From Tsuneonella dongtanensis (GTDB lineage: Bacteria; Pseudomonadota; Alphaproteobacteria; Sphingomonadales; Sphingomonadaceae): a stretch of DNA of 64,000 nucleotides. The notes under the pieces are model-generated. The model had not been told where the DNA came from. It ran no database searches and was given only the letters and a program-made list of their open reading frames with translations. Below, in pieces: positions 1,976-44,100 of the stretch. A program made the position numbers and the translations under genes. Numbering within the stretch: the stretch's first letter is position 1; each line of letters starts with the position of its first letter. The stretch covers positions 1,798,001 to 1,862,000 of the forward strand of contig NZ_CP016591.1 of assembly GCF_001698205.1 (NCBI RefSeq). Reading direction: 5' to 3'.

Positions 1976-2644
1976 TCAGAGCGACTCGAGCGCCGGGATC
2001 AGCTCAGGGAGCGAATCGATCACGGCGTCGGCGCCCATCTCGTGCGGGTGCAGGTCGTGGTACCCGAAGGTCACCGCAATAGTCGGTACGCCTGCGGCGC
2101 GACCCGCCCTTACGTCGTAGGAACTGTCTCCGACGAAGGCGATCCGTCCGCCGCCGCATCGCTCGCGCGCTTCCCAGATGGGGTCGGGTGCGGGTTTGGC
2201 CCTGCCTTTGCCCAGGGTATCGCCGCCAATCACGCAATCGAACCGATCGTGCATGTCGAGCGCCTTGAGGACCCCACGGGCGAACTCCTCGAACTTGTTC
2301 GTAACCACTGCCAGCCTGACCCCGCGTCCCCGCAGCGTGTCGAGCATGTCGACAGCGCCGGGAAACGGCTGAGTGTGGTCGGCGAAATGCTTGCCATAAT
2401 AGGCGAGCATCGCCTTGTAGAGCTCGCGAAACCGACCGTCTTCGCACCCCCCTTGATCGTCGATCGCGCGCCGCAGCATGATCTTGGCCCCGCCGCCGAT
2501 GAGGTCCGTCGCGCTTTCGATTGGCACCGCGAGGAAGCCGCCCAGGGTGAGGGCATGGTTGACTGCGGTGCCAAGGTCGCGATGGGTCTCGAGGAGCGTG
2601 CCGTCGAGGTCGAACGCGACGATGTCGAACTGAAAATCGGCCAT
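1976..2644 (-). CDS. gph: Phosphoglycolate phosphatase-like HAD hydrolase
   Basis: A 222-residue haloacid-dehalogenase-type phosphatase. The nucleophile motif FDLDGTLLET lies near residue 10, the VVTNK motif (threonine) near residue 115, the conserved lysine near KGRAKPAPDP, and the acidic motif GDSSYDVRAG near residue 175. A helical cap sits between motifs one and two. The set fits phosphoglycolate phosphatase (2-phosphoglycolate to glycolate), although other small phosphate esters cannot be excluded. It is divergent from glmU with 47 bases between the starts, a shared promoter region. Confidence 0.85.
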   Translation of the reverse strand: MADFQFDIVAFDLDGTLLETHRDLGTAVNHALTLGGFLAVPIESATDLIGGGAKIMLRRAIDDQGGCEDGRFRELYKAMLAYYGKHFADHTQPFPGAVDMLDTLRGRGVRLAVVTNKFEEFARGVLKALDMHDRFDCVIGGDTLGKGRAKPAPDPIWEARERCGGGRIAFVGDSSYDVRAGRAAGVPTIAVTFGYHDLHPHEMGADAVIDSLPELIPALESL

Positions 2645-2691
2645 GCGTCACGCGGTAGCGGGGATTCTTCCAACCGCAAGCAATCGGTGGC

Positions 2692-4083
2692 ATGGCGCCC
2701 GGCATGAACACACCACGCGAATTCGCCGCCGTCATCCTTGCCGCCGGCAAGGGCAGCCGACTCAAGAGCGGGCTGCACAAGGTTCTCCACCCCATCGCCG
2801 GACGTTCGATCATCGATCACCTGCTGGCATCGGTCGCAGCACTGGAACCCGCGCGCACGATCGTGATCGTGGGGGACGAACGGCAACAGGTGATCGACCG
2901 CGTCGGCGACAGGGCCGAATGCGTCGTCCAGGAGCCGCAACTGGGAACGGGTCACGCGGTCGCGCAGGCGAAGGACGCACTGTCGGGATTTACCGGGGAC
3001 GTTCTCATGCTCCTCGGCGACGCACCTTTCATCAAGACCGAAACGATGTCCGACATGCTGGCACGCCTTCGGGCGCCCGATGCGCCGGCCGTGGTGGTGC
3101 TTGGCTTCGAGCCGTCCGATCCGCTCCAATACGGCCGCGTGATCACGCACGCGGACATGACGATCGAGAAGATGGTCGAGTTCAAGGATGCGAACGAGGC
3201 AGAACGGGCGTGCCGCCTGTGCAACTCCGGCCTGATGGCCGCGCGCGCGGAAGACCTGTTCGATCTGCTCGGGCGCCTCGACAACGACAACGCCCAAGGG
3301 GAATTCTACCTGCCCGACATCGTCAACGTGGCAGTGCGCGACGGGCGAACCTGTGCGGCCGTGCGAACCGACCACCCCGACGAGGTAGCCGGCATCAACA
3401 GCCGGTCCGAACTCGCCCAAGCCGAGGCGCAGTGGCAGCAGCTCAAGCGCGCCGAAGCGATGGCGGCGGGTGTCACGCTTCGCGCGCCCGAAACGGTGTT
3501 CTTCAGCTACGATACCGAGCTCGCGGCCGATGTGACGGTCGAGCCGAACGTCGTCTTCGGTCCCGGAGTGACCGTGGCGAGCGGCGCGACGATCAAGGCG
3601 TTCTGCCACCTCGAGGGTGCGACAGTGGGCGAGGGTTGCGAAGTCGGGCCGTTCGCTCGCTTGCGACCCGGTGCGGTGATGGAGAAGCGCGCCAAGGTTG
3701 GCAATTTCGTCGAGATGAAGAAGGCCGTCTTAGGCGCGGGCGCCAAGGCCAGCCATCTCACCTACCTCGGCGATGCCGAGGTCGGCGCTGGCGCGAATAT
3801 CGGCGCGGGTACCATCACCTGCAACTACGACGGGTATTTCAAGCACAAGACGGTGATCGGGGAGCGGGCCTTCATCGGCTCGAACAGCGCGCTGATCGCG
3901 CCCGTGCGCATCGGGGCAGACGCCATCGTCGCGGCAGGAAGCGCGGTAAGCCGCGATGTGGACGACGGGGAATTGCGGATGGTCAGAGCCGAGCAACTCG
4001 TAAAGCCCGGCTGGGCGGACCGCTTCCACGACGCCATGAAAAAGAAGAAGGCGGCGGAGAAGAACAAGAGAGGCGGGCGTTGA
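2692..4083 (+). CDS. glmU: Bifunctional UDP-GlcNAc pyrophosphorylase / glucosamine-1-phosphate N-acetyltransferase
   Basis: Makes UDP-N-acetylglucosamine for peptidoglycan and lipopolysaccharide. The 463-residue protein has the N-terminal uridylyltransferase domain with LAAGKGSRLKSGLHKVLHP and LGDAPF, and a C-terminal left-handed beta-helix acetyltransferase domain with repeated IG-type hexapeptides and the GAGTITCNYDGYFKH segment. Two starts are possible, 2692 and 2704; neither has a clear Shine-Dalgarno sequence. The C-terminus ends in a very basic lysine-rich tail. Its TGA overlaps a TTG start of the HNH gene. Confidence 0.96.
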   Translation: MAPGMNTPREFAAVILAAGKGSRLKSGLHKVLHPIAGRSIIDHLLASVAALEPARTIVIVGDERQQVIDRVGDRAECVVQEPQLGTGHAVAQAKDALSGFTGDVLMLLGDAPFIKTETMSDMLARLRAPDAPAVVVLGFEPSDPLQYGRVITHADMTIEKMVEFKDANEAERACRLCNSGLMAARAEDLFDLLGRLDNDNAQGEFYLPDIVNVAVRDGRTCAAVRTDHPDEVAGINSRSELAQAEAQWQQLKRAEAMAAGVTLRAPETVFFSYDTELAADVTVEPNVVFGPGVTVASGATIKAFCHLEGATVGEGCEVGPFARLRPGAVMEKRAKVGNFVEMKKAVLGAGAKASHLTYLGDAEVGAGANIGAGTITCNYDGYFKHKTVIGERAFIGSNSALIAPVRIGADAIVAAGSAVSRDVDDGELRMVRAEQLVKPGWADRFHDAMKKKKAAEKNKRGGR

Positions 4084-4355
4084 GCGAACCTGCCACCTGC
4101 TGGCTCTGCGACCGTCCCCTGGGTGACCAGTTCGACTGGCACCATCCCGTGCCCAAGTCGAAGAAAGGAAGGGTGAAGGTGCCGGTTCACCCGATCTGCC
4201 ACCAGGCGATCCATGCGAACTTCACCAACGCCGTGCTCGCGCGGATCGGCGGGGACCGTGCCGTCCTGCTCGACAACGCGGCGCTGGCGAAATTCGTCAC
4301 GTGGGTAGCGGACAAGCCGCCCGACTTTCACGCCCCCACGCATCGCAAGGGCTAG
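4080..4355 (+). CDS. Small HNH-type (CxxC/HH) protein with TTG start
   Basis: A 91-residue protein whose frame has no ATG near its natural beginning. A TTG at 4080 overlaps the glmU stop (TTGA) and gives MSEPATCWLCDRPLG, followed by the WHHPVPKSKKG stretch and a later PICHQAIH. The CxxC plus HH plus HxxxH arrangement is that of compact HNH endonuclease folds that bind a metal ion. Whether it is a nuclease is unknown. Coupling to glmU suggests co-expression. The stop overlaps by four bases the stop of the convergent DUF1153 gene. Confidence 0.75.
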   Translation: MSEPATCWLCDRPLGDQFDWHHPVPKSKKGRVKVPVHPICHQAIHANFTNAVLARIGGDRAVLLDNAALAKFVTWVADKPPDFHAPTHRKG

Positions 4356-4579
4356 GCGATTTCCTTCGCCTCCTGCTGGTCGACCTTTTCTTCCCAGGTG
4401 CGGAACTCGCTCCGGCTGAGGAGATAGCGCCAACGCGCTTCGTCGAACGTGATCAGTTTGTCCCGCACCGCGCGGACGACGTCCGCCTTGCGCTGTTCGG
4501 ACCAGTGGACCTTGTGCGACTTGGGAAGGCCCGCTCGCTTGATAGCTGCAGAGACCGTGCTGTCATATGGGTACGCCAT
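4352..4579 (-). CDS. DUF1153 / SciP-like small DNA-binding protein
   Basis: A 75-residue basic protein. Its central part, RKADVVRAVRDKLITFDEARWRYLLSR followed by SEFRTWEEKVDQ (about residues 30-68), follows the helix-turn-helix pattern of the DUF1153 family. That family includes the Caulobacter CtrA inhibitor SciP. It lacks the longer N-terminal extension of Caulobacter SciP. The ATG is preceded by AGGAG. Two CtrA-like half-sites lie 48-80 bases upstream, consistent with the cell-cycle circuit, but a role here is an inference from family membership. Confidence 0.7.
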   Translation of the reverse strand: MAYPYDSTVSAAIKRAGLPKSHKVHWSEQRKADVVRAVRDKLITFDEARWRYLLSRSEFRTWEEKVDQQEAKEIA

Positions 4580-4626
4580 GCCAATTTACTCCTAGACGCC
4601 CCCCGTCTGAAGCAAATCTCACCGGC

Positions 4627-4659
4627 AACGGTTAATTACGGATTGTCGCGAATGGTTAC
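4627..4659 (-). promoter_or_regulatory. Two candidate CtrA half-sites upstream of the SciP-like gene
   Basis: On the reverse strand, GTAACCATT (4659-4651) and TTAACCGTT (4635-4627) resemble the CtrA half-site TTAACCAT. They are 24 bases apart and lie upstream of the SciP-like gene start at 4579. The motif is short and degenerate, so chance occurrence is possible. Confidence 0.35.
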
Positions 4660-4706
4660 TTTTCGGTTGAGCATCCCGACCGTGCGATACGAGCGACGAA
4701 CCGAAG

Positions 4707-32679: not shown

Positions 32680-32753
32680 ATGGACGCGATTGCCGCTTTG
32701 TCAGACAAGCTCGGGAAACACTCTGAGCTCAAGTTCAATCGAGGTGAAAATTG
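32680..32753 (+). pseudogene. 5' fragment of a hypothetical gene split by the IS element
   Basis: From ATG at 32680 the frame reads MDAIAALSDKLGKHSELKFN, then RGENW, up to the IS end. The codons GAA-AAT-TGG at the junction are repeated at 36077-36085 on the other side of the element, where the same frame runs on for 108 more codons. The intact gene would encode 132 residues. Function unknown. Confidence 0.8.
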
Positions 32754-32774
32754 GGTAGTGTCTCAGTTTGAAAT
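32754..32774 (+). repeat. Left terminal inverted repeat of the IS element
   Basis: GGTAGTGTCTCAGTTTGAAA plus T, matching the reverse complement of 36056-36076 at every position. Preceded by the target duplication GAAAATTG. Confidence 0.92.
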
Positions 32775-32830
32775 TTGACGAGCGGCCCTTGCGTTTCCAT
32801 AGTATGCTTAGCGCAAAGCATGGAGGCGAT

Positions 32831-33022
32831 ATGGCTGTTCAAGATAATCCCCGTTATGCCGCGTGGTCCGCCGCTCTCGATAGGCTGCATGATGCCAACG
32901 CCCGGTATAGAAGCGCAACCGACGGGAGTTCGAATCTCGCGCCAAGTCTCGTGGCGGCTGCGGCACGGAACCTGGACCAAGCGAAGGCTGATTATGATGC
33001 AGTCAGCGCGGAGTTGGATTGA
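32831..33022 (+). CDS. IS passenger: 63-residue hypothetical protein
   Basis: A short helical protein (MAVQDNPRYAAWSAALDRLH then DANARYRSATDG and NLDQAKADYDAVSAELD), probably two long helices. I do not recognise the family. The ATG at 32831 has a strong GGAGG seven bases upstream; an in-frame ATG at 32768 lies in the terminal repeat region and is less likely. Its stop overlaps the start of the next passenger gene (TGATG), so the two are co-translated. Confidence 0.65.
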   Translation: MAVQDNPRYAAWSAALDRLHDANARYRSATDGSSNLAPSLVAAAARNLDQAKADYDAVSAELD

Positions 33023-33246
33023 TGCCTAAAGGTCCACGCGGAGAGAAGCGACCAGCCGATGCGATCGGGCGTGCGGTGATGATCGGTAAGATCGCTACTG
33101 GCGAGATTGAAGACGACCGCGCGGAGCTTTCCAGTGCCGCCGCTCAGCTTGGCAGCAAAGGCGGGAAGGCGCGCGCCAAGGCCATATCCCCTGAGCGGCG
33201 GGCCGAAATCGCCCGCGAAGCCGCAAAGGCACGTTGGAAGGACTAA
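33022..33246 (+). CDS. IS passenger: small basic protein with KARW tail
   Basis: A 74-residue protein beginning MPKGPRGEKRPADAIGRAVM and ending PERRAEIAREAAKARWKD. Glycine-lysine-rich and alanine-rich stretches (LGSKGGKARAKAI) give a strongly basic character, suggestive of nucleic-acid binding. Similar proteins with this head and tail occur in many proteobacteria without known function, from recall. It follows the 63-residue gene with a one-base overlap. Confidence 0.7.
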   Translation: MPKGPRGEKRPADAIGRAVMIGKIATGEIEDDRAELSSAAAQLGSKGGKARAKAISPERRAEIAREAAKARWKD

Positions 33247-33601
33247 GACAGACCGCCGCCCTGCAAATCCGCTGCCTGAATTATTTTTCCCCACATACCA
33301 TGCACCGCTATTGCGCGGTGTAGGGCAATCCTTTAAAGCTGGAATCGCGACGGGACCGAATCCTCGCCAGAGGACCGGTCCCGCGCTGGTGAGCCTGCCC
33401 TCGCGAGCGGGGCCCTTGTCTGTCCACCACGGCCATCCTGCCAGATGGCCCAAGTCGAGAGGAGGTTACGAAGATGGGTCCGAAATTCTAGACCCGGCCC
33501 TTCGGTCACACTCCAACCCGGAACCCGGAGGGTGCCGTCCCGGATGCGCGCGAAGCGTCTCCGGGACGGCCATTGTCTGGCACAAATGAGGACAAATGGC
33601 A
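33247..33601 (+). ncRNA. Structured non-coding block in the IS element, candidate RNA or leader
   Basis: No long reading frame fits this 355-bp gap. Four stem-loops stand out: CGGGACC/GGTCCCG (33351-33383, with an inner CCTC/GAGG), GGCCATC/GATGGCC (33431-33450), GGGTC/GACCC (33476-33495) and GCCGTCCCGGA/TCCGGGACGGC (33534-33570, with inner CGC-GAA-GCG). Between the second and third lies AGGAGG (33460-33465) followed at good distance by a five-codon frame ATG-GGT-CCG-AAA-TTC-TAG (33474-33491). It may be a leader RNA controlling the downstream HARE-HTH and transposase genes, or a free small RNA. Confidence 0.45.
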
Positions 33602-34174
33602 ATGGAAAACGACGCTGGTGCTGACGCCTACGCGGTTGTTTTGGCTGATCTCCGTCGCCAACGCGATGAAATTGAAACCGCAATTGCAGCGATTGAGCGG
33701 CTGACCGGAGTCAAGGCCGGGGTATCCGCCGCGCCGACTAAGGCCCCCGCCGAGCGCACCGCACCCGCTGGCGGTTCGTTGCTCGGCATGTCGATCGCCG
33801 ATGCCGCGCGGAAGGTTCTCGAGGCGAAGCGTAACAAGGCTTCTACTGCGGAAATCGTTTCCGCCCTTGAGGCTGGTGGTGTGGAACTAACTTCCGCCGA
33901 CAAGAACAACACGGTTGGATCGATCCTACTCCGTCGTTTCTACAACGTCGGGGACATCGTGCGCGTCAATCGCGGTGTCTGGGGTCTCCAAGAGTGGTAT
34001 CCTGGCCGCAAGTTTGCGAAGGGCAGTAAGGTTGGCGAGGTCAAGGAAACTGCTGTTTCCAAAGAGAATTCCGATGAGCGCGTAGAAGAACAAGAAGAGA
34101 CCAATTTCGACTTGAGGGATTTGGGCCTTGAACCCAACATCACAGATTCAGAGGACGACGACATTCCGTTTTGA
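33602..34174 (+). CDS. IS passenger: HARE-HTH-like winged-helix protein
   Basis: A 190-residue protein. An N-terminal coiled coil (about 8-40) is followed by a domain at about 62-130 reading IADAARKVLEAKRNKASTAE, then IVSALEAGGVEL, SILLRRFYNVGD and VRVNRGVWGLQEW. This follows the HARE-HTH (HB1-ASXL-restriction endonuclease) winged-helix pattern. The C-terminal tail is highly acidic and ends DSEDDDIPF. GAGGA (33588-33592) suits the ATG at 33602 better than the one at 33596. Probably a DNA-binding regulator of the element; this is an inference. Confidence 0.7.
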   Translation: MENDAGADAYAVVLADLRRQRDEIETAIAAIERLTGVKAGVSAAPTKAPAERTAPAGGSLLGMSIADAARKVLEAKRNKASTAEIVSALEAGGVELTSADKNNTVGSILLRRFYNVGDIVRVNRGVWGLQEWYPGRKFAKGSKVGEVKETAVSKENSDERVEEQEETNFDLRDLGLEPNITDSEDDDIPF

Positions 34175-34217
34175 TGCATGATTGTGCTTGACGGTAAGCA
34201 AAAAAGTTCATATTAAA

Positions 34218-35102
34218 ATGAGCATGAACAAGCTGCCTCTCGCCAAGCGCACTCAAATCCTCGCCATGCTGTGCGAGGGATCGTCCATGCGGTCGATCAG
34301 CCGCATTGCGGACGTGTCGATCAACACGGTGAGCAAGCTGCTCGTCGAGGCCGGTGAGGCTTGCCTCTCTATCCATGACGAGACGGTCCGCGATGTGAAG
34401 GCGAGCCGCATCCAGTGCGACGAAATCTGGTCGTTCTGCTACGCGAAGGCTGCGAACGTCGCGACCGCGAAGGACGCCCCGGAGGGCGCTGGCGACGTGT
34501 GGACCTGGACCGCTATCGACGCCGACACAAAGCTGATGGTGTCCTATTTCGTCGGCGACCGTGGCGCGGAAAGCGCGATGGTCCTGATGGACGATCTACG
34601 CGCCCGCCTTGCCAACCGCGTCCAGCTTACCACTGACGGGCATCGCGCCTATCTTGAAGCGGTCGAAGGCGCGTTCGGCGCTGACGTGGACTACGCACAG
34701 CTTGTGAAGCTGTATGGCGAACTCGGCGGCAAGAGCCCTGATCGCCGCTACAGCCCCGCCATATGCACCGGCGCGAAGAAGGTCCGCCGCGAAGGCAATC
34801 CCGATTACGCCCATGTCAGCACGTCGCACGTCGAGCGCATGAACCTTTCGATCCGGATGCAGAACCGCCGCTTCACGCGCCTGACGAACGCTTTCAGCAA
34901 GAAGCTGGACAACCATATTCACGCGCTGGCGCTCTACTTCGCGTTCTACAATTTCTGCCGCATCCATAAGACGCTGCGCGTGACCCCGGCGATGGCCGCT
35001 GGCATTACCGACCGCCTCTGGACGCTGGACGATATCGTTGCGAAGATCGATGGGATGGCCCCGGCACCTAAGCCGCGCGGTCCCTACAAGAAGCGCGGCT
35101 AA
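34218..35102 (+). CDS. IS1-family transposase
   Basis: A 294-residue single-frame transposase. It has an N-terminal helix-turn-helix (LAKRTQILAMLCEGSSMRSI then SRIADVSINTVSKLL) and an RNase H-like core with D68 (QCDEIWSF), D140 (LTTDGHRAY) and E206 (HVERMNLSIR) as likely catalytic residues. The segment after E206, RMQNRRFTRLTNAFSKK, parallels the ERHNLNLRQHLARL...FSKS stretch of IS1 InsB. It catalyses cut or copy of the element between its inverted repeats. Unlike IS1 no frameshift is needed. An AT-rich spacer precedes the start. Confidence 0.9.
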   Translation: MSMNKLPLAKRTQILAMLCEGSSMRSISRIADVSINTVSKLLVEAGEACLSIHDETVRDVKASRIQCDEIWSFCYAKAANVATAKDAPEGAGDVWTWTAIDADTKLMVSYFVGDRGAESAMVLMDDLRARLANRVQLTTDGHRAYLEAVEGAFGADVDYAQLVKLYGELGGKSPDRRYSPAICTGAKKVRREGNPDYAHVSTSHVERMNLSIRMQNRRFTRLTNAFSKKLDNHIHALALYFAFYNFCRIHKTLRVTPAMAAGITDRLWTLDDIVAKIDGMAPAPKPRGPYKKRG

Positions 35103-35335
35103 GCCGCCGAGACGCGCAGTCCGAATATGTCCATCATGCGATAACCGGCTTCAAGACAAGGCACCGACGCCAAAACGCGGATGCCGAAACTGCCCGGCGC
35201 GTTCTCCGCTTCATAAAGATACAATCCACCGATTGCATCGGACATGCCGTTGTCCGCCAATGTCTTTCGGGATAGTTCGGACAAGTATATTTCTTGTCCC
35301 GTCGGAGTTGTCCCCACCGCAAGGAACTCATCCAT
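35099..35335 (-). CDS. IS passenger: 78-residue hypothetical protein, reverse strand
   Basis: MDEFLAVGTTPTGQEIYLSE, SRKTLADNGMSDAIGGLYLY and a mixed alpha/beta remainder. It looks like a real small globular protein, though such a frame could arise by chance. It converges with the transposase (stops overlap by four bases). Its start codon shares a CATG palindrome with the start of the forward-strand neighbour, so the two genes are back to back with overlapping start codons. I do not recognise the family. Confidence 0.5.
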   Translation of the reverse strand: MDEFLAVGTTPTGQEIYLSELSRKTLADNGMSDAIGGLYLYEAENAPGSFGIRVLASVPCLEAGYRMMDIFGLRVSAA

Positions 35336-36056
35336 GGCTCGACCTCCTGCCCCGCGCGTGAATCCCCGACTTTCGGCGTCTCAATTGGCAGACTATCTCA
35401 GCGCTGCCACACCTGTAGGCCAGCTGGGAATCTTGAGGCAAGCGAAAAACCCCGGGCCCAACCGTCCGATCATCATCCAGTACCATCATGCGCGCAGAAC
35501 GATTGCTGAATGCCTAAGGGATCGCGGCGGGCTTAATCGTATCGTGGCCCAAGCGAACGCACTTCTTGAAGATCGACGCGACGACGGCACAAATGGCCCG
35601 CTCGTGCGTGATGATGCGCAGCGTTGCATTGATGTGATCGAGGCCTTCCAGCGCGCCTCGAACGCGCTGGATGTGTGGGGGCCAGAGTATCGTGAAGCCC
35701 GACAACCATCGCCCCCGCTCAACATCAACGGCGTCGAGGTATCAGTAGCACCCGACGCTCTAGTGATCGACAACCGGCGCGCTCGGGTGGGCCAGGCGTT
35801 CATCCGCTGCACAATCGGCGGGGCTGGCGAAGCCGCCGAGAACCGTAGGGCAGAGGCAAACGTGAATCTTGCAACGTTGGCGCACATGCACGCGACCCAA
35901 TACCTCGCCGATCTTGGCGAGCCGCACCCTCAAACATCAATGGTGATCGACGTATCCCGGGAGAACGTCTTTCGCGCCCCTGCGAACTCCGCTCGACGTA
36001 TTGCGAACATCGAAGCGGCCTGCACGATGATCGCCGCAATCTGGCCGACCGTCTGA
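35334..36056 (+). CDS. IS passenger: 240-residue hypothetical protein
   Basis: Starts MARPPAPRVNPRLSASQLAD with AAGGA eight bases upstream. The sequence is mostly helical: a central part with RPIIIQYHHARRTIAECL, a segment NGPLVRDDAQRCIDVIEAFQ and a long C-terminal half with VSVAPDALVIDNRRARVGQA. No membrane segment, signal peptide or known catalytic motif is seen. The stop lies exactly at the inner edge of the right inverted repeat, showing that the gene belongs to the element. Unrecognised family; a cargo function is possible. Confidence 0.7.
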   Translation: MARPPAPRVNPRLSASQLADYLSAATPVGQLGILRQAKNPGPNRPIIIQYHHARRTIAECLRDRGGLNRIVAQANALLEDRRDDGTNGPLVRDDAQRCIDVIEAFQRASNALDVWGPEYREARQPSPPLNINGVEVSVAPDALVIDNRRARVGQAFIRCTIGGAGEAAENRRAEANVNLATLAHMHATQYLADLGEPHPQTSMVIDVSRENVFRAPANSARRIANIEAACTMIAAIWPTV

Positions 36057-36076
36057 TTTCAAACTGAGACACTACC
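36056..36076 (-). repeat. Right terminal inverted repeat of the IS element
   Basis: Perfect reverse complement of 32754-32774. Followed by the target duplication GAAAATTG at 36077-36084. Confidence 0.92.
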
Positions 36077-36409
36077 GAAAATTGGCTTAGGATTGACCAG
36101 CCCATCTCATCCGGTTTTGCTGTCGAGCTTCGTCAACAAGGAGGCGAGTGGACCATCTATTTGGGTCAGGGTGGATGGCACCAGCACTTTGATGACGCTG
36201 AGGAAGCACTGGATTTCATCGCGTGGTGCTACTCGGGCGAGGCGAGGGTTCGCGAAATTTGGCGCGGTAATTTGCTTCAAAAGGCAGTTCTTGAAGCTCG
36301 CGAGGATGGAGCGTGGCGAGCGGTATCTGAGACAGGACTAATCCTCTTCCCGTTCTGGCGGAAGCGCCGCGAGGTTGTGCTGGACAACCCGAATCTTCTT
36401 ACAAATTGA
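36077..36409 (+). pseudogene. 3' fragment of the hypothetical gene split by the IS element
   Basis: Continues the frame of the 5' fragment: ENWLRIDQPISSGFAVELRQ, then GGEWTIYLGQGGWHQHFDDA and EEALDFIAWCYSGEARVREI, ending VVLDNPNLLTN. Rich in tryptophan and acidic residues, it looks like a small cytoplasmic protein of the kind found among mobile or immunity-type genes; I do not recognise the family. An internal ATG at 36161 could allow a shortened product. Confidence 0.75.
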
Positions 36410-41179: not shown

Positions 41180-44100
41180 CTACTCGGCCGCGAGGAGCTC
41201 CGCCTCGCCGAGGTCCACGCTGACCAGGCGGCTGACGCCGCGTTCGACCATCGTCACGCCGAACAGGCGGTGCATGCGGCTCATCGTCACCGCGTTGTGG
41301 GTCACGATCAGGTACCGGGTCTGGGTTTCGGCGACCATCGAATCGAGCAGGTCGCAGAAGCGGTCGATGTTGGCATCGTCGAGCGGGGCGTCGACTTCGT
41401 CGAGCACGCAGATCGGCGCGGGATTGGTCAGGAACAGCGCGAAGATCAGCGCGATCGCGGTAAGCGCCTGCTCGCCGCCCGACAGCAGGGTGAGCGACTG
41501 CAGCCGCTTGCCCGGCGGCTGGGCGTAGATCTCGAGCCCCGCCTCGAGCGGATCGTCGCTGTCGATCAGCGCAAGGTGCGCCTGCCCGCCCTCGAACAGC
41601 CGAGTGAACAGCCGGCGGAAGTGCGTGTCGACCTGCTCGAATGCGGCGCGCAGGCGCTCGCGCCCTTCGCGGTTGAGGTTGCCGATCGATCCGCGCAGGC
41701 GATTGACCGCCTCGGTCAGCTCGGCCTGCTCCGCGGCGCTCGATCCGTGCTCGGCCTCGATCCGCTCGAGCTCGTCCGCGGCAACCAGGTTGACCGGGCC
41801 GATCCGCTCGCGACTGGCGGTAAGGCGTTCCATTTCCTCGCCCTCGAGCCCGGCATTCTTCACAGCTTCGGCATCGAAACCGATGCGATCGGACAGGAGC
41901 GGCGGCGAGCACTGGAACCGCTCGCCCGAGATGCGCGCCATCTCCTCGCGGCGCTGCTCTTCGTTGTCGGCACGGGCGGCAAGTCCGGCGCGCAATTCGC
42001 GGGCGGTGGCGAGCGCCTCGGTGACGTCGGCCAGCGCGTGGTCGGCGGCGGTCGCGGCCGTCTGCGCTTCCACCACCGCCTTCTCCGCTTCGGCAAGTTC
42101 GGAGGTCAGGCGCGCCCGAACCTCGTCGCCGCGCTCGATTTCGCGCAGGAGGCCTTCGGGCTTGGCGGCGACGACGGCGCGTTCCTGCTCGATCTCTTCG
42201 AACCGGCGGCTCATGTCCGACAGTCGCCGCGCGGCCTCGCCCGAGCGGGCCTGCCAGCTCGCGATATCCGACCTCTGGGCAGCGGTACGCTCGCGCGCGA
42301 CCGCGAGGCCCTGATCGTGGGCGGCGAGCTCCGCGGTCGCCGCCTGCAGTGCCGAGCGCGCCGCCTCGTTCTTCGCCTGGGCCGCTTCGAGAGTGGCACG
42401 CCCGGCATCGGGCGGGGGCAGGGCATCCCGCTTTGCCAGTGCCGAAGCCATGTCGGTCTCGGCGGCGTTGCGCTGTTCGGCGAGATCCGTTTCGCTCGAC
42501 GCCAGTTCCGCCAGCCGCGCGGCATGGCGCTCGCGTGCGGCCTCGGCCTGGTCGAGCGCCCGGAGCGCGCCGCGCTCGGCTTCGATCGTCTCCTGAACCC
42601 CGCGCTCGTCGGCAACCAGCTCGCGTTGCAGCGTGGCGAGTTCGTCCTGGGCGCGCGCCTGTGCGGCTTCCGCGGTGGCAAGCGCCTCGCGCCGGGGCGG
42701 CAGGAGCGACTCCAGCTCGGCGAGCCGGTTCTCGGCCTCGAGACGGGCCGCTTCGGCAGCGCCTTCACCGCGCGCAATGAAACCGTCCCAGCGCCGCAGC
42801 GCACCGGCCCGGGTCACGAGCCACTCGCCCGGTTTCAGCGCTCGCCCGTCATCGCTGTCCGCGACGTGGACGAGCGCGAGCCGCGCAGCGAGCTCTTGCG
42901 GGCAATCGGTGACGTGCCGTGCCAGCGAATCGGCGACCGGGGCAGGGGCGGTCGATCCGGTCCAGTAGCGTCCCTCGCCATCGCCTTGCGGCGTGCCAAG
43001 GGGAGAGCGGGCATCGCGCCCGAGCACGGCGGCGACCGCGCGCTCGTATCCCGAAGCCGCGCGGACGCGGTCGAGCGCAGTGGGCAGGCCCTGCCGCCCC
43101 GCTGCGGCCTTCGCGCGCGCCTGGCGGTCGCGGTCGAGACCCTGGAATTCGCGTTCGAGCCCGGCGACTTCCGCCCGGGCTGCCGAAAGCGCGGACGCAG
43201 CTTCGTCGCGTGCTGACTGCAGCGCTTCCTTGCGCGATCGCTTGGCATCGAGCGCGTCACGCAGGGCGAGGACGGCCTTCGCAGCATCCTCGGTGTCGCG
43301 CTGTGCCGCGTTCACCGCAGCTTCGGGATCGCCCGCCTGGGACAGCGCCATGCGCGCCTCCGCATGGCGCCGGGCCTCGCTTTCGAGCCGCGCGAGCCGG
43401 GCCTCGGCTTGCGCCACTTCCGCCTCGGCGACACGCCATTCCGCCTCGACCCCGGCCTGGTCCGCGGTAGCCTTGGCGAGGGCGAGTTCCGCCGCGCGCC
43501 CGGCGCGCTCGGCATCCTCGAGCTTCCTCGCCAGTGCAGGGCGGCGCGCCTCGTCGGCCTCGAGCGCGGCGGCATTGGCGGCCAGTTCCTTCTCCAGCCG
43601 GGCGAGCGCTTCGGCGGCATCCCGGGTCAACCGGTCGGCATCGCCGCGATCCTCCTCGAGCCGCGTCTTCTGCCGGTCGAGGTCGGCGAGGCGCTGCTCG
43701 GCGGCTTCCAGCTGGCTCGACAGCGCGGCCATCCGGTGGCCGTGCGCACTGGCATCGTCGCGCCGGTCGGCGAGCTCGTCGCGCGCTGCGGCTAGCGCCT
43801 GGGCCGCGGCGGCCTGCGCCTTCTGTGCTTCGCTCGAAGCCTGCTGGGCAGCGGCGACGCGCTCGTCCGCCGCCTTCGCTTCGGCGCGCGCGGCCGTCGC
43901 CGCCGCCGCCGCGTCGCGCCAGCGGGCGAACAGCAACCGCGCCTCGGCGACGCGGATCTGCTCGGAGAGCGCCTTGTAGCGCTCGGCCTGCTTGGCCTGC
44001 CGGCGGAGCGAGGCGATCTGGCTGTCGAGGCCCGCCATCAGGTCTTCGAGCCGGGCCAGGTTGGCCTCGGTCTGGCGCAGCTTGCTCTCGGCATCGCGGC

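Follow-up and report, generated by a model that had tools for sequence, protein, structure and literature searches.

A candidate structured 5′ leader of a HARE-HTH gene in the cargo of an IS1-type element of Tsuneonella dongtanensis

Introduction

Riboregulatory 5′ leaders, such as the autoregulatory leaders of ribosomal-protein genes and the riboswitches, are structured RNAs, and elements of the IS1 and IS1595 types that carry passenger genes are also known. Two further systems place a structured RNA with an insertion sequence (IS): OMEGA RNAs, which adjoin TnpB or IscB (PMC10278001), and IStrons, which combine a group I intron with an IS (PMC4227781).

Here we analyze a structured block at positions 33247-33601 (+) of the window, by which we mean the whole 64-kb stretch of the Tsuneonella dongtanensis contig NZ_CP016591.1. 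A first-pass annotation, made from the letters alone, had placed this block inside an IS element and read it as a leader-peptide attenuator of the HARE-HTH and transposase genes, or as a small RNA.

Results and discussion

The host element and its genes

The features of the locus are collected in Table 1. The gene order is 63-aa ORF, KGG protein, structured block, HARE-HTH, transposase and 270-aa ORF, enclosed by an inverted repeat (32751-32787 / 36043-36079, 86%) and by an 8-bp target duplication, GAAAATTG, at 32746-32753 and 36077-36084. These terminal repeats and the duplication bear out the placement of the block inside an IS element, and since both copies of the duplication are intact, the insertion looks recent. 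The assignment to the IS1 family follows from the transposase match, which scores 26.6 bits against PF03400 (cut-off 24.1) and 66 bits against NF033558, below its cut-off of 100, together with the short target duplication. Both the block and the transposase are single-copy in the 3.0-Mb genome. The element splits a reading frame whose start is at 32680 (MDAIAALSDKLGKHSELKFNRGENW) and which resumes in frame past the right duplication, up to 36409.

Just within the left end of the element lies a promoter-like site (32775-32803, +; 0.5 expected in shuffles), and the block may therefore be intercistronic in the window.

Table 1. Features of the IS1-type element and of the structured block, in window coordinates.
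Feature	Position	Strand	Remarks
IS1-type transposon with cargo	32754..36076	+	inverted repeats at the ends are imperfect, GGTAGTGTCTCAG...
63-aa ORF, first gene of the element	32831..33022	+	DUF4398 E 0.021, below cut-off
74-aa basic KGG protein, SKGGKARA stretch	33022..33246	+	backbone gene common to sibling elements
Structured block	33247..33601	+	homologous to L090 ~2630-3000 and L103 ~790-1032 (5′ part absent in L103)
Hairpin P0	33303..33320	+	in window and L090, absent from L103; GTAGGG follows
Hairpin P1	33347..33386	+	3/3 homologues, sequences differ; also in whole-block folds
Invariant motif TGGTGAGCC	33387..33395	+	alignment of homologues
Invariant motif GGGGCCC	33409..33415	+	alignment of homologues
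Invariant motif AAGTCGAGAGG	33452..33462	+	last three bases shared with the AGGAGG of the first-pass annotation
Five-codon mini-ORF MGPKF	33474..33491	+	not conserved
Hairpin P4, surrounds mini-ORF	33476..33495	+	2/3 homologues (window, L090)
Possible helix P5	33498..33532	+	C-G, U-G, U-A at one pair; 3/3 as separate segment
Long hairpin P6	33534..33570	+	11-bp stem of the first-pass annotation; 3/3, whole-block folds included; G-C, C-G, U-A at one pair
Weak hairpin P7	33573..33595	+	3′ strand contains part of likely HARE-HTH Shine-Dalgarno (GAGGA 33588-33592)
HARE-HTH protein, 190 aa	33602..34174	+	PF05066 E 2.7e-7; start ATGGAAAACGA
IS1-type transposase	34218..35102	+	PF03400 E 8.4e-6; NF033558 E 3.9e-18
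270-aa ORF, second cargo position	35244..36056	+	27% identical relative in L013

Homologues of the block and of the HARE-HTH gene

Two homologues were recovered. The first, L090, is a contig of a viral collection found by searching with the HARE-HTH protein; its block stands directly upstream of the HARE gene, and inverted repeats (2565-2591/4708-4734) flank the two. An IS1595-family transposase of the opposite strand (PF12762, E 1.1e-29) falls within these repeats as well, and by eye no clear direct duplication adjoins them. The second, L103, is a phage contig, likewise of the viral collection, found by motif search; in it the block is followed by MENENKPDPY, the start of HARE-HTH only, and then by unrelated sequence up to a P22-like portal gene (PF16510, E 2e-107) that runs on the opposite strand. 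The distance from P6 to the HARE ATG of ATGGAAAACGA is 31-33 bases in all three homologues, and the alignment of this start makes 33602 likelier than the listed 33596. A partial tRNA-like sequence with a GCA anticodon (2265-2318, 16 bits, below the Rfam cut-off) separates the IS1595 element of L090 from an integrase-like gene and is perhaps an attachment site; its CTGCAAATCCGCT recurs at window positions 33261-33273, perhaps by chance.

The HARE-HTH proteins of the window and of L090 score 31.3 and 43.1 bits against PF05066, exceeding its curated cut-off of 25.9 bits, and are 52% identical in alignment and 45% in the tblastn segment. The libraries searched gave no nuclease match, the defence and phage libraries no useful match, and the solved structures no convincing one; the predicted structure has a mean pLDDT of 45. 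The window protein ends in EDDDIPF (34151-34171), which resembles the extreme C terminus of the single-stranded DNA-binding protein of bacteria, and its L090 relative ends otherwise.

Further searches gave no additional true homologue. Block DNA matched 3 of 296 order genomes, namely itself and two short matches (25 and 26 bases; sources L002 and L003), of which the one in L002 lies in an unrelated stretch, and no plasmid record. The HARE-HTH protein was found in 1 of 396 order genomes (itself only), in the 385 class genomes as itself and one weak match of 27%, in plasmids not at 1e-5 (two weak matches at E up to 5), in phages not at 0.01, and in none of the 196 pattern matches among genome contigs. 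A two-sequence HARE profile returned from the viral contigs the L090 contig again and nothing else; the L090 block had no match in phages and plasmids, nor the L090 HARE protein in plasmids. The motif pattern gave 8 matches among the genome contigs, all without the block's flanking motifs, and in the viral searches (1, 13, 61 and 6 stretches) the only real ones were the L090 contig, again recovered as L091, and L103. A covariance model restricted to the 3′ part of the block (R1, 165 positions) matched 2 of 396 order genomes and 3 of 88 sources; the second order-genome match (20.5 bits) lies inside a gene reading as alanyl-tRNA synthetase. The motif pattern also occurred in 5 of the 385 class genomes, with no full R1 match at those loci.

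Rfam 15 gave no match in the window at the gathering score, and weak unrelated matches only, for the block and for L090, at E up to 10. With no such RNA found in the searchable text of open-licence papers either, the block is probably a new family of structured RNA.

Folding strength and conservation of the fold

The first-pass annotation had described several stem-loops, among them an 11-bp stem with a nested stem, and had named random sequence as their control. The stem-loops and their positions were confirmed, the 11-bp stem being P6, and the block folds far better than its shuffles: its RNA fold has an energy of -161 kcal/mol (z -5.14), and 0 of 100 dinucleotide shuffles were as low. When 24 shuffles were used per stretch, its z of -4.16 was the lowest among 91 sampled 355-base stretches of the window, the 90 others having a mean z of -0.28 (plus strand, sd 1.1, minimum -3.6); the structure thus exceeds chance. 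Besides P6, the hairpins P1 (strong), P0, P5 and P4 fold as separate segments.

This folding strength bears on the idea that the block is degenerate coding sequence folding by GC-rich chance. A mechanical listing does give overlapping ORFs of 116-160 aa on both strands, but the homologues differ by indels (14, 6, 5 and 1 bases, and others), and these, together with the z of -5.1, make a coding remnant very improbable.

The fold is retained among the homologues in its main parts. Whole-block minimum-energy folds keep P1 and P6 in all three, whereas P5 appears there in L090 only, and P7, which forms as a segment in all three with an energy of -4.5 to -7.2 kcal/mol, is present in the whole-block folds of the window and L103 and absent in that of L090. 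Whole-block z values were -5.14 for the window, -4.05 for L103 and -2.51 for L090 (1 of 100 shuffles as low). The consensus fold reached a z of -4.26 for the three homologues and of -5.13 for the window and L090, with 0 of 300 column shuffles as good in either case.

Covariation was less clear. In a hand-made register, which is partly circular and excludes bulged bases, 9 columns showed paired changes on both sides (five in P1, two in P6, one each in P5 and P0), and native strands paired at 109 of 112 positions, as against 168 of 202 when the strands were swapped between homologues. In the automatic register of the same three sequences, the number of both-sided pairs was reached by 62 of 500 shuffles, and the covariation term of the automatic alignments by 133 of 300 and 251 of 300, none of which is significant. 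The covariance check proposed in the first-pass annotation thus yielded a conserved fold and, in the automatic register of three homologues, no significant covariation; stability and conservation support the fold, and covariation does no more than suggest it.

The minus strand of the block folds as well (z -4.08, 0 of 100 shuffles as low), which weighs against a leader acting as RNA and would fit a structure that acts as DNA, whether as a site of recombination, replication or transposition or as the remnant of another element. The location within mobile elements, and in L103 as a fragment in a phage contig, points the same way. Against this, strand and spacing to the coding start are constant in the three homologues, the block lies away from the ends of the window element, and P5 and P7 contain G-U pairs, which suit RNA; we regard a DNA role as improbable.

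The sibling elements and their cargo slot

The transposase has relatives in 31 plasmid records and at 77 loci of the viral collection. At 41 sibling loci, a few of them near-copies, a KGG gene precedes the transposase in the same orientation with a readable gap between the two, and the contents of this gap vary from element to element. The HARE-HTH protein was detected by tblastn in 0 of 87 records, the whole block was not found beyond short chance matches by blastn (87 records, 41 readable gaps), and its 3′ part was not detected at the sibling loci by R1. The gap therefore reads as a cargo slot, and on this comparison of gene content the block together with HARE-HTH is one cargo of it.

Since the block was detected in none of the 41 readable sibling gaps, it does not appear to serve the transposase. 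Control of the transposase by the block, part of the first-pass proposal, was rejected on this absence, and the transposase of L090 moreover lies on the opposite strand.

Other contents of the slot were recorded in passing. In 13 of the 41 loci (within the range L005-L087) it holds a pair of ORFs of ~160-225 and 357-397 aa, the larger of which, where annotated, is XRE-type or helix-turn-helix; in L006 a pair annotated as RES/Xre lies 3′ of the transposase. L016, a sibling whose KGG protein is 79% identical, has at 1403-1672 a structured stretch (z -4.5) that is unrelated to the block, consists largely of a long inverted repeat and has no R1 match; it precedes a 194-aa protein that is 28% identical to the HARE protein in alignment and has no Pfam match. 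At 4181-4672 of the sibling L032, a protein with no Pfam match above cut-off seems by its sequence to combine a coiled coil with a winged helix, in a layout resembling the HARE-HTH cargo.

The mini-ORF and leader-peptide attenuation

The first-pass annotation had proposed that translation of a five-codon ORF switches the hairpins and so controls HARE-HTH and the transposase. Its reading of the letters is exact: AGGAGG (33460-33465) is followed after 8 bases by ATG GGT CCG AAA TTC TAG, a perfect Shine-Dalgarno (SD) sequence before MGPKF, and the corresponding parts of L090 (MKG) and L103 (MKD) happen to contain tiny ORFs as well. The peptide, however, differs in each homologue, the ATG takes a different place with respect to the conserved motif, and the window copy alone has a strong SD at a workable spacing, L090 and L103 having no AGGAGG-like SD close upstream. 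P4, which surrounds the mini-ORF, is absent in L103 when segments are folded separately, and the scan's rule detected no terminator-like T-run after P6. Within the 64 kb, 9 ATG sites on both strands stand behind AGGAGG, GGAGGT or AAGGAG at a spacing of 4-10; besides the present one, two of them, at 43641 and 46141 on the minus strand, open tiny ORFs (4 and 2 codons), so that the combination of SD and mini-ORF is unremarkable and not beyond chance. Neither blastn with the whole block nor R1 with its 3′ part detected it in sibling elements that have related transposases. Leader-peptide attenuation was consequently rejected on conservation: a conserved leader peptide is excluded so far as three sequences permit, and the attenuator as a whole is very improbable.

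Proposed role of the block

What stands of the regulatory layout first suggested is a conserved structured RNA before the HARE-HTH gene, with neither a leader peptide nor control of the transposase. We hold with moderate confidence that the block is a structured cis-acting 5′ leader of HARE-HTH, and that the two form a cassette carried as cargo by at least two insertion sequences. The conserved fold stands directly upstream of the same gene in three of three independent loci, the third with the first HARE codons only, and the pair is carried by an IS1-type element in the window, while in L090 it lies within the repeats that surround an IS1595-type transposase. The leader would be transcribed together with the HARE-HTH gene; its folded upstream domain would govern the opening of P7, which pairs part of the SD, and this opening would set HARE-HTH translation. 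The likeliest signal, we propose, is the HARE-HTH protein itself, in an autogenous control. Certain findings speak against such a leader: the homologues number three, one of them incomplete, and the L090 block alone folds moderately. For the switch in particular, P7 is weak and missing from the whole-block fold of L090, while P5 is present in that fold only.

A simple SD switch would, moreover, need less conservation than the motifs between P1 and P4 show, and a ribonucleoprotein (RNP) or ligand site would suit them equally. The main rival to the leader is a free-standing non-coding RNA, binding the HARE-HTH protein as one half of a two-part RNA-protein cargo that would aid the element or the host. 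It would account for long invariant motifs amid variable hairpins, for the same protein accompanying the RNA on two kinds of IS, for a very stable hairpin (P6) close to the 3′ end, and for a layout resembling that of RNAs adjoining TnpB or IscB. Yet no terminator-like T-run follows P6 under the scan's rule, no promoter-like site immediately precedes the block, either in the window or in L090 (where the scan also found no counterpart of the left-end site), the homology extends into the HARE start codon, and HARE-HTH is a domain of DNA-binding type whose library searches returned no nuclease. We consider a free RNA possible and clearly less probable than the leader. The broader proposal of a mobile RNP module is more doubtful still: in it the new RNA and the HARE-HTH protein would act jointly, having spread as one on IS1-type and IS1595-type elements and into phages. 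If true, such a module would parallel, with no nuclease, the pairs of RNA and protein in IS200/IS605-type elements.

Comparison with known systems

The RNA stays with one protein gene while the carrier transposon changes. If it controls or works with HARE-HTH, it would offer a direct test of the role of small HARE-HTH cargo proteins for mobile elements.

Among the described systems, the block is like the OMEGA RNAs in being structured, beside a protein gene and within an IS-type element. It is unlike them in that its HARE-HTH partner has no nuclease match, and HEARO, the Rfam family of the IscB RNA, is not among the Rfam matches. With IStrons it shares a structured RNA inside an IS; it differs in having no group I intron match in the Rfam results, and splicing of the block from the portal transcript of L103 is impossible because the portal gene lies on the opposite strand. 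The IS1 and IS1595 passenger elements resemble the present ones in transposase, terminal repeats and cargo genes, with an 8-bp duplication in the window copy, and differ in that a structured RNA without coding function, common to both families, forms part of the cargo here. Finally, as in riboregulatory leaders, the block is a multi-hairpin structure directly 5′ of one gene, at a fixed spacing and with a hairpin touching the SD; unlike them, it matches no Rfam 15 family and travels as the cargo of insertion sequences.
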